A DNA stretch of 64,000 bases, taken from the IMG/VR virus record IMGVR_UViG_3300037247_001314, positions 42,805-106,804 of that record. One strand, 5' to 3'. Numbering within the stretch: position 1 is the stretch's first letter; every line of letters begins with the position of its first letter. Below are positions 52,798 through 55,398 of this stretch, in pieces. This DNA comes from a virus. A program made the position numbers and the translations under genes. The notes under the pieces are model-generated. The model worked only from the letters and a program-made list of their open reading frames with translations. It ran no database searches and was not told the origin of the DNA.

Positions 52798-55398
52798 TCA
52801 ACGCGGCCGGTTTGCAACCCAGGCGCCAAAAAAAGATGCGTCCTCAAGAACCTCAACGTTAAATGTAGCTTCCTTCCAGAACACACTCAACCGCTCAAGG
52901 CTGTGATCCATAAGGGTTCGGTGGTGTCTATCCGAGAAATCAACGAAGAGCGCGCGGGTCTTACCAGGCACTGCGGTGCACGCTCGATACGCAGCTTGGA
53001 TGAGAGGGACTTCCGCTTTCTGGCCTGGGCAGTAAACACAGGCGGCAGTGTTTGGCAGGTCAGTGCCCTCTCCGACCATGCTCGTGCCGATTAGCACCTG
53101 GATGGCCGAGCTCTCTGCAAAGGTGTCGATGATGTTTTGACAAATGTGTGCTGGCCGATTGGTGCTCACAAACTCCACAGCCCGAAACTGCCTACCTGCT
53201 GGCGTCGGGTACTGATGCTTAAGTCGATCCAGAATAGTGTTGCCTTGCTCTTTTGTCCCGACGAGGACGAGCACCTTGTGCCCGTGGTGGGTGAGCACCT
53301 GTGTGGCCCATGCAGCGAGGTCAGTGCGATATTCATGTTGATAGATGCCGTTCTTGCCACAACCCGTCTGGAACGTGGGGCCGCCCTTCGCCCGAGGACC
53401 GTTGACCGGTAAATAGCAAACGTCGGTGGGCACGAGGTAGCCACGCTCGACGAGTTCTTCGGCCGTGACCTTGTAGATGGTCTTTGAAAGAACGGCATGC
53501 ATCGCAAGTGCGTCCTCGCCCGAGCGAAAGAACGTCCCCGTCATGCCGTAGCGATAGTAGATGCTCGGACACTTGGCGACGAGCTCGTGGTAGGTCTTCG
53601 CGGCGCTGTTGGAGACTTTGACCCCTTCTGCGAAATAGTTGTGGTCGTGCTCTACTTCGAGATCGTAAACCGCAGCACACGTCGACGGGAAAATCTCGAC
53701 GCTGAGCACCTCACCCGCAACCACTCGGCTGCCGCCTCGACTTGATTCGCGGGAACACGAATCACCGCCCAACCGATCGCCAGAAGAAAAGCATCCTTCC
53801 TGTCGTCGACATCCCGCCGATTCTGATGGGACGACCCGTCGATTTCCACCGCAACTTTCCGAGAGAGCAGCGCGAAATCGAGGCTGTACCAAGTCGCTCC
53901 CTCGCCCTTTTTGTTCCCGGTCTTCACCACCACCTCGCGCGCGAAACCCAGTGGCTTGAGGATCTTCCAAGCTTTTCGCTCTGACAAAGTTGGGCCCGAA
54001 CCTTTGCCTCCTGTGCCACGCCCGTAAGCCACCATTCGCCCGTCCGCTATCGCTCGCTGGATTCCCGCCGTCATTCGCGCACGACTGGTGGGGGAACGCG
54101 TTTGATTTTTCTCGCGCATGCGCTCGCTGAGTTGCTGTCGATAACTCTGATTCTCGGAGCGGACCTTCATCGCGCGTCGATGCACCGCGGGGTTCGCAAA
54201 AGGATTCCGCCCCGAACACGTCAGCACGTGTCCCCCCAGCGATTTGAGCTTCACCTCGACGCCGCAAATAGGGCACGGCTTGGTTTTCTTCTTGGGGCCC
54301 TGGCAAACCCTCTCGTGCAGGAGAAACGGACCGCGCCGCTTGATTTTCCGGCCGCACTTCGAGCACGTGAACGATGCTCCCAACTCGAAGATCACCGGCG
54401 CGTTTTTTACCATCTGAGGTGAAGACTTCGTGCTCACTTGTAACCTCCATCGTTCCTACCGTCGTGCCAATACGCAACATCGTTGGTGGCGGCGTGCGCT
54501 TCCAGACGCGCGCAACCTTACGGGGAACTACCCCTTCCGCCGTATCAGCAAATACTTCATCACCCGCCCGCAGGCATTGAATCTCTCGTGGACCAGTAGG
54601 TGTAGTTACCAGCGTGGTGGGACTAAAGCAATGGTGAAACTCGTCGATGAAGAGCATGTCCCGCGTCGCGAAAAACTCGGGGGGAAGGTCTCTTGCCGTC
54701 GCTGCCGTGCAAATGACAACACGACAGTGCACCTCGCCACGCCAGTTGCTCGCGCCAACTAGGTGCCCAACGTAGTTCTCACCGAAAAATCCTTTGAACG
54801 CGCGCACGGTTTGTTTGACGATGTTTGTCGTCGGAGCAATCCAAATAGCGGGCAGCGCTAGCCGCCGTTGGATTTCAATACCTGTACGAGTTTTTCCCGA
54901 GCGTGGAGGCATATCGAGAACGCCACGTCCTTCTCGGAGCGCAGCCTCCACAGCAGCTAGCTGGTAGTCGCGGTCGACGACAGGTGTGTGGAGGTCGGGA
55001 AGGCCGTCAAGCGGAACCTCTCTGCTGTCGTCGATAGAGAACGCAAAGCCATAGCGCTGGCAAACCCACTGGCAAAGGTCGAGCAAACCCGTTGGGGTTA
55101 TCCCTGGTCCTTGAGCGGGAAAGCGCGTGAGATGGATCCAGCCGTCCCAGTAGTCTTCGCCGATGTACGCTTCAGGAGGCTTCCAACCCTCCGTCTGCTG
55201 GAGCGCAACGTCAGACGGGTATCTGGTGTGGAAAGCGAGAAGCTGCTGCAAGTAGGGAGGGGCTCCGTAAATCCGACAGAAGGTGTTGCCTACTTCGAAA
55301 ATCGTTTCAGAAAAACCGTCCGCAAGGATGGGCGCTGGAGCCCCGAGGCCGAAGGCCGAGGGTGCTCCTAGCGCTTGTTGGTTTCCTGCCCAGTTCAT
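52798..55398 (-). CDS. UvsW-like SF2 helicase interrupted by an intein
   Basis: 866 residues; exteins about 525. Motif I PPRSGKT (164-170), motif Ia IAPTTNIVKQT, motif II LFIDEFHH (249-256), motif III MTGTF, motif V LIGTSMVGEGTDLPN and VI QAAYRACTAVPGKTR. C257 to N597 is an intein (separate entry) inserted right after DEFHH; splicing restores DEFHH-SAAKTYHELV, the standard motif II context. SF2 helicases of this type unwind or migrate branched DNA and restart replication. A strong terminator follows. Confidence 0.85.
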   Translation of the reverse strand: MNWAGNQQALGAPSAFGLGAPAPILADGFSETIFEVGNTFCRIYGAPPYLQQLLAFHTRYPSDVALQQTEGWKPPEAYIGEDYWDGWIHLTRFPAQGPGITPTGLLDLCQWVCQRYGFAFSIDDSREVPLDGLPDLHTPVVDRDYQLAAVEAALREGRGVLDMPPRSGKTRTGIEIQRRLALPAIWIAPTTNIVKQTVRAFKGFFGENYVGHLVGASNWRGEVHCRVVICTAATARDLPPEFFATRDMLFIDEFHHCFSPTTLVTTPTGPREIQCLRAGDEVFADTAEGVVPRKVARVWKRTPPPTMLRIGTTVGTMEVTSEHEVFTSDGKKRAGDLRVGSIVHVLEVRPENQAARSVSPAREGLPGPQEENQAVPYLRRRGEAQIAGGTRADVFGAESFCEPRGASTRDEGPLRESELSTATQRAHAREKSNAFPHQSCANDGGNPASDSGRANGGLRAWHRRQRFGPNFVRAKSLEDPQATGFRARGGGEDREQKGRGSDLVQPRFRAALSESCGGNRRVVPSESAGCRRQEGCFSSGDRLGGDSCSRESSRGGSRVVAGEVLSVEIFPSTCAAVYDLEVEHDHNYFAEGVKVSNSAAKTYHELVAKCPSIYYRYGMTGTFFRSGEDALAMHAVLSKTIYKVTAEELVERGYLVPTDVCYLPVNGPRAKGGPTFQTGCGKNGIYQHEYRTDLAAWATQVLTHHGHKVLVLVGTKEQGNTILDRLKHQYPTPAGRQFRAVEFVSTNRPAHICQNIIDTFAESSAIQVLIGTSMVGEGTDLPNTAACVYCPGQKAEVPLIQAAYRACTAVPGKTRALFVDFSDRHHRTLMDHSLERLSVFWKEATFNVEVLEDASFFGAWVANRPR
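53608..54630 (-). mobile_element. Intein in the UvsW-like helicase
   Basis: 341 residues, C257-N597 of the precursor, next residue Ser598. Block A CFSPTTLVTTPTGPREIQCL, block B VTSEHEVFTSDG (TxxH), block F YDLEVEHDHNYFA, block G EGVKVSN/S (His usually precedes the final Asn; here Ser). Between blocks B and F, ~250 residues in the intein frame are Arg/Gly/Ser/Glu-rich with no homing-endonuclease motif, yet free of stops; the nuclease is encoded there in the +1 frame. Confidence 0.85.
53652..54437 (-). CDS. Vsr/EDxHD-like homing endonuclease nested out of frame in the intein
   Basis: 261 residues, +1 frame relative to the helicase. GTG 54437 has GGAGGT (54443-54448) 5 nt upstream, a perfect ribosome site. 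Two fingers: C25-C28-H41-C45 and C55-C58-H70-C74. Basic helical middle, then a nuclease core: YSLDFAL (D187), VAVEIDGSSHQNRRDVDDRK (E198, D200, H204, D210) and FLLAIGWAVIRVPANQV, like Vsr/DUF559 and EDxHD homing enzymes. Ends at intein block F. Probably cuts intein-less helicase alleles to spread the element. Confidence 0.8.
   Translation of the reverse strand: MSTKSSPQMVKNAPVIFELGASFTCSKCGRKIKRRGPFLLHERVCQGPKKKTKPCPICGVEVKLKSLGGHVLTCSGRNPFANPAVHRRAMKVRSENQSYRQQLSERMREKNQTRSPTSRARMTAGIQRAIADGRMVAYGRGTGGKGSGPTLSERKAWKILKPLGFAREVVVKTGNKKGEGATWYSLDFALLSRKVAVEIDGSSHQNRRDVDDRKDAFLLAIGWAVIRVPANQVEAAAEWLRVRCSASRFSRRRVLRFTISK

Follow-up and report, generated by a model that had tools for sequence, protein, structure and literature searches.

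An EDxHD-like endonuclease gene overprinted in the +1 frame of a phage helicase intein: a recurrent arrangement that annotations appear to have overlooked

Results

A helicase intein with a second gene in its +1 frame

A helicase gene of viral DNA was found to carry an intein with an endonuclease gene overprinted in the +1 frame of its codons. The insert is very probably a mobile intein whose homing enzyme is a separate gene with its own start at a ribosome site inside the intein codons. In the window (the whole 64,000-nucleotide stretch of DNA analyzed) and its relatives, both reading frames, the boundaries of the insertion, its family-wide conservation and selection in both frames were seen at the level of sequence. 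By these analyses the arrangement was confirmed to be real, conserved and selected, and it seems to be widespread and overlooked by annotations. The features of the locus are listed in Table 1.

Table 1. Features of the helicase locus and of the gene overprinted in its intein (window positions).
Feature	Position	Strand	Basis
SF2/UvsW-like helicase precursor with intein, 866 aa	52798..55398	(-)	ResIII 9.4e-12; phrog_16 DNA helicase 2.6e-52
N-extein of helicase	54631-55398	(-)	
C-extein of helicase	52798-53607	(-)	
Intein, 1023 nt, 341 aa, helicase residues 257-597 (C257-N597/S598)	53608..54630	(-)	L170 comparison, profile and fold matches
Hint N-terminal half, intein residues 1-92; block A C257, block B TSEH	54355..54630	(-)	pLDDT ~95-98
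Stop-free intein-frame linker, predicted disordered	53734..54354	(-)	pLDDT ~40-65
Hint C-terminal half, intein residues 300-341; blocks F/G, ...VKVSN	53608..53733	(-)	pLDDT ~95-98
Putative homing-type endonuclease gene, +1 frame of intein, GTG start (54437), 261 aa	53652..54437	(-)	ORF, DUF559, stop and selection tests
GGAGGT ribosome-binding site of +1 gene, inside intein codons at block B, 5 nt before GTG	54443..54448	(-)	sequence
CCHC zinc finger 1 (C25, C28, H41, C45)	54303..54365	(-)	sequence
CCHC zinc finger 2 (C55, C58, H70, C74)	54216..54275	(-)	sequence, alignment
EDxHD/Vsr-like nuclease core (D187, E198, D200, H204, D211)	53703..53990	(-)	alignment, model

The insertion point of the intein was located in helicase motif II, between DEFHH and SAAKTY, and a class 1 signature was evident from the C257 nucleophile, a TxxH block B (T-S-E-H), the terminal N597 and S598 at the +1 position. 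The intein matched Pfam Intein_splicing at 3e-8, slightly below the gathering score, and passed the cutoff of NCBIfam intein_Cterm; Intein_splicing was likewise matched by 46 of the 47 aligned intein members. When the alignment of these 47 members was used as input for structure prediction, both Hint halves were modeled with high confidence and the middle was left unordered (Table 1). The best solved matches to this model by Foldseek were inteins or intein-like domains (Mtu RecA, Ssp DnaB and gp41-1, probability 1.00). The original prediction of splicing blocks in the helicase intein is borne out by these profile matches and by the Hint fold. The IN and IC halves share one ORF of 866 aa, rather than the separate ORFs of a split intein. 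The penultimate residue is Ser, not His (53608-53613), and this Ser-Asn end is common to the relatives L010-L013. Ser in place of His before the terminal Asn can slow intein splicing. The window precursor is predicted to undergo protein splicing.

The ends of the insertion were established by comparison to L170, a related 110-kb phage contig with a helicase that is 77% identical (protein) and lacks exactly the window insert. By blastn, the two were collinear to both insert ends with the intein stretch as the sole gap, such that L170 provides an intein-less homologue with exact extein continuity across DEFHHSAAKTY, the junction named in the original prediction. No close empty/occupied pair that would reveal recent homing of the window copy was found. 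In the intein-less helicases L171-L206, the +1 residue at the window site is A, S, G or T, and thus only part of these alleles would support splicing with Ser/Thr/Cys.

No nuclease was detected in the splicing frame, which sets this element apart from a canonical bifunctional intein. As originally predicted, the nuclease was instead found in the +1 frame as 261 codons with two CCHC fingers and a Vsr/EDxHD-type core, and its GGAGGT was verified at a spacing of 5 nt to the GTG. Profile searches of the two frames were in agreement, with Intein_splicing and intein_Cterm in one and DUF559 (1.8e-10) in the other. The gene had been described as spanning blocks B to F; this position held with the small correction that its start lies inside block B and its stop inside block F, slightly overlapping both. 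The residues D187, E198, D200, H204 and D211, candidates for the active site, were invariant in 59 of 59 aligned nuclease members, and in zinc finger 2 of these members C58 was invariant and C55 and C74 were conserved in at least 90%. The nuclease core was modeled by AlphaFold2 with pLDDT of ~90+, and Foldseek matched the model to 3hrl and I-Bth0305I (3r3p) with probability 0.99-1.00 (E 5e-3 to 6e-3) and more weakly to Vsr (1vsr; probability 0.91, E 0.13). A profile search of PDB sequences recovered 3hrl at 6.5e-12 and 3r3p at just 0.041. Assignment of the predicted +1 product as a homing-type EDxHD/Vsr-like endonuclease is supported by the alignment and the model.

The arrangement recurs in 122 of 144 distinct loci

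With the window nuclease as sole query, phage relatives of ~30% identity were detected, mostly within genes named helicase or unnamed. A single-sequence search of IMG/VR with this nuclease gave no match, and relatives appeared there only with a profile (A1); in a plasmid search, matches spanned only ~40% of the query. When contigs of IMG/VR and GTDB were searched with profiles and the hits classified by HMM, 144 distinct loci were obtained. The nuclease was at +1 of the intein with both intein halves in one ORF in 122 of the 144, and at +1 with the halves in separate ORFs in six (L074, L097, L276, L302, L334 and L347). In four loci (L011-L013 and L320) an in-frame fusion joined the nuclease to the intein N-half, and the C-half was in another ORF; two (L033 and L255) were conventional, with the nuclease in the splicing frame. 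Five had no intein nearby, and the remaining five were cut by contig ends or had one half missed in the scan. A nuclease at +2 of the intein was observed in none of the 144 distinct loci. Insertion sites were mostly in the helicase motif-II region, between DE and C in the majority and between DEFHH and S in the window and L010.

All seven isolate-phage records examined (Corynebacterium, Vibrio and Pseudomonas) had the nuclease at +1 to the helicase CDS, and the embedded gene was annotated in none of the seven, including those of Vibrio phage CP-T1 (L003) and Corynebacterium phage phi673 (L002). In some Vibrio phage records the helicase itself is labelled 'coil containing protein'. A sequencing frameshift was ruled out by the same +1 offset in 7 of 7 isolate-phage loci and in the 122 distinct loci. 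Recurrence in more than 100 distinct loci, mostly of phages, argues for a widespread arrangement missed by annotation and not for an accident; the window case is one member of a broad family and not a one-off.

Both frames are constrained

Stop avoidance was assessed by synonymous codon shuffling of the nuclease, with 2000 shuffles for the window. The window intein frame had 0 stops over the nuclease compared to 9.2 expected (P<1/2000), in keeping with the earlier proposal that the same ~790 bp stays open in two frames. Intein-frame stops were likewise absent from 77 of 77 distinct loci (mean expected, 8.8 per locus). The third frame had 11 stops in the window and an average of 15 over the 77 loci. 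A chance open frame was ruled out by the window counts in the intein and third frames and by recurrence of the arrangement.

For eight related pairs, pN/pS was estimated from pairwise counts that ignore kinship, the loci being partly non-independent. The exteins, IN and IC had mostly low helicase-frame pN/pS. Extein substitutions fell on third positions of the helicase frame, a pattern that held for the most part in the splicing halves too. Within the overlap, substitutions fell on nuclease-frame third positions; nuclease-frame pN/pS was 0.04-0.50 in the eight pairs, and intein-frame pN/pS was 1.0-2.0 in seven of the eight and 0.28 in one pair with four changes only. For the window and L010, overlap pN/pS was 0.60 in the nuclease frame and 1.19 in the intein frame, with amino acid identities of 46% and 22%, respectively. 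By these counts purifying selection acts on the nuclease frame in related pairs, and the overlap pattern indicates that the intein frame seems constrained chiefly to remain open.

Start signals, mobility and relatives

SD-like 5-mers were present in 34% of nuclease start windows compared to 11% of interior windows, and L010, like the window, had GGAGGT ahead of the nuclease start. Among 14 loci with [DE]E[VL] after block B, the Glu codon was GAG in 11 compared to an expectation of 4.7 based on the codon usage of each gene, a codon choice that creates GAGGT ahead of the nuclease start. No SD of at least 4 bases was detected in the start window of ~26% of loci, and initiation may therefore differ among members.

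The inteins of L037 and L050 were nearly unchanged (pS of 0.04 for IN and 0.02 for the overlap) compared to exteins with pS of 0.37-0.43, a contrast to be expected after recent homing or horizontal transfer. L004 and L005 similarly had an intein region far less diverged than the flanking helicase. The low intein divergence in these two pairs suggests recent horizontal movement.

Free-standing relatives of the nuclease were found directly upstream of helicases with an uninterrupted motif II (L079, 3354-3996; L267, 3700-4330). The four N-half fusions lie at the insertion site of the window, with the C-half and C-extein in a separate overlapping ORF, and are likely natural split inteins; zinc fingers were not seen in the nucleases of L011-L013. 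The six loci with separate intein-half ORFs have the +1 nuclease between these ORFs in a layout like that of fractured genes. Taken together, the relatives in split, N-fused and free-standing form hint at a connection with fractured genes. A free-standing gene may have landed in a mini-intein, as the original prediction proposed, or an in-frame domain may have been frameshifted to give the overprint; the tree of the family was midpoint-rooted with weak inner support.

Discussion

In the mechanism that we favor, the ribosome would translate the entire element in the helicase frame, and the Hint domain, interrupted by a disordered linker of ~200 residues, would splice out to leave an intact helicase. 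A second initiation on the same mRNA, at the GTG behind the GGAGGT embedded in intein codons, would yield a zinc-finger EDxHD endonuclease of ~29 kDa that terminates inside block F. This enzyme would recognize and cut the motif-II DNA of helicase alleles that lack the intein, and repair of the cut allele would copy the element in. Internal-site translation, splicing, cleavage and homing are steps that we infer from sequence. The mechanism draws on the 122 of 144 loci at +1, stop avoidance, pN/pS, SD enrichment, the predicted folds, the empty allele L170 and the L037/L050 pair; counted against it are the quarter or so of loci without an SD, the Ser before the terminal Asn and the want of a close empty/occupied pair for the window copy.

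Synthesis of the nuclease through a programmed ribosomal frameshift that leaves the frame of the intein N-half, with an N-extein-IN-nuclease fusion as product, appears unlikely. Such a fusion is evidently tolerated, since it occurs naturally in frame in L011-L013 and L320, and the loci devoid of a clear SD would be accommodated; however, SD motifs are enriched in the start windows, and the nuclease start positions relative to block B vary between lineages. Far less probable is a dead relic in the +1 frame, which would have stayed open solely through the need for an open intein frame. The avoidance of intein-frame stops does restrain indels, but the low nuclease-frame pN/pS in the eight pairs, the value for the window and L010, the higher identity of these two in the nuclease frame than in the intein frame and the invariance of E198, D200, H204 and D211 in 59 members are at odds with a relic. 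The same pN/pS values and invariant residues discount the suggestion in the original prediction of a decaying insertion kept open by the helicase, and its interpretation stands as regards an EDxHD/Vsr-like +1 nuclease with its own ribosome site in a spliceable intein. Least credible of all is a spurious intein reading, with the nuclease carried by an RNA intron or by an insertion that does not splice. EDxHD nucleases are also known from group I introns (PMC3943268), and the ShiLan insertion of phage methylases is an example of the non-splicing type (PMC11855218). Against these precedents, a Hint fold is predicted for the two ends of the insert with high confidence, nearly all aligned members match Intein_splicing, the intein frame is open in every one of the 77 loci, and no Rfam match at gathering threshold was found around the window element.

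The overprinted intein thus writes a splicing element and a putative mobility enzyme in the same ~790 bp, both under selection, in phages of unrelated hosts. The family represents hidden genes missed by annotators and a large natural data set for overlapping-gene evolution, and through it a connection of bifunctional inteins with fractured genes and split inteins can be tested. A broader proposal, which we hold tentatively and consider slightly more apt to fail than to stand, is that these loci form an unannotated class of 'entangled' inteins at motif-II sites of diverse helicases, with a +1 EDxHD endonuclease and its start signal in intein codons. This class would serve as an evolutionary hub, in which one frameshift or stop is enough to produce a natural split intein or a fractured gene and no free-standing gene needs to be inserted.

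The arrangement had been proposed as new. In the literature searched, out-of-frame precedent was limited to ShiLan and a 2025 genome announcement of the same kind of methylase insert, and a 2025 preprint from the ShiLan group on non-canonical actinophage inteins may overlap; priority of the overprinted-intein arrangement is therefore uncertain. ShiLan, reported in 2025, is an out-of-frame HNH endonuclease in mycobacteriophage methylases, within an insertion that has no splicing domain, does not splice and has no SD (PMC11855218). Like ShiLan, the window has an endonuclease out of frame in an insertion kept open in the host-gene frame; unlike ShiLan, the insertion is a Hint intein and the nuclease is EDxHD-like with an SD present.

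The phage-borne I-Bth0305I (PDB 3r3p) shares with the window nuclease its core fold, the invariant ExDGxSH...D pattern and a modular DNA-binding N-terminus, which in the window enzyme has zinc fingers. I-Bth0305I is, however, a group I intron enzyme, whereas the window gene is overprinted at +1 inside a contiguous intein. Canonical bifunctional inteins similarly combine a Hint domain with nuclease codons between blocks B and F, but the window nuclease lies outside the intein polypeptide, and the only canonical members of the family are the two conventional loci. Dassa et al. (2009) reportedly described fractured genes with split inteins and a free-standing Vsr-like endonuclease. The window element resembles these in that a nuclease of this class lies within an intein of phage DNA-metabolism genes. 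By contrast to fractured genes, the 122 loci that include the window have an uninterrupted intein frame, and cis-splicing, with use of both frames, would thus be expected.
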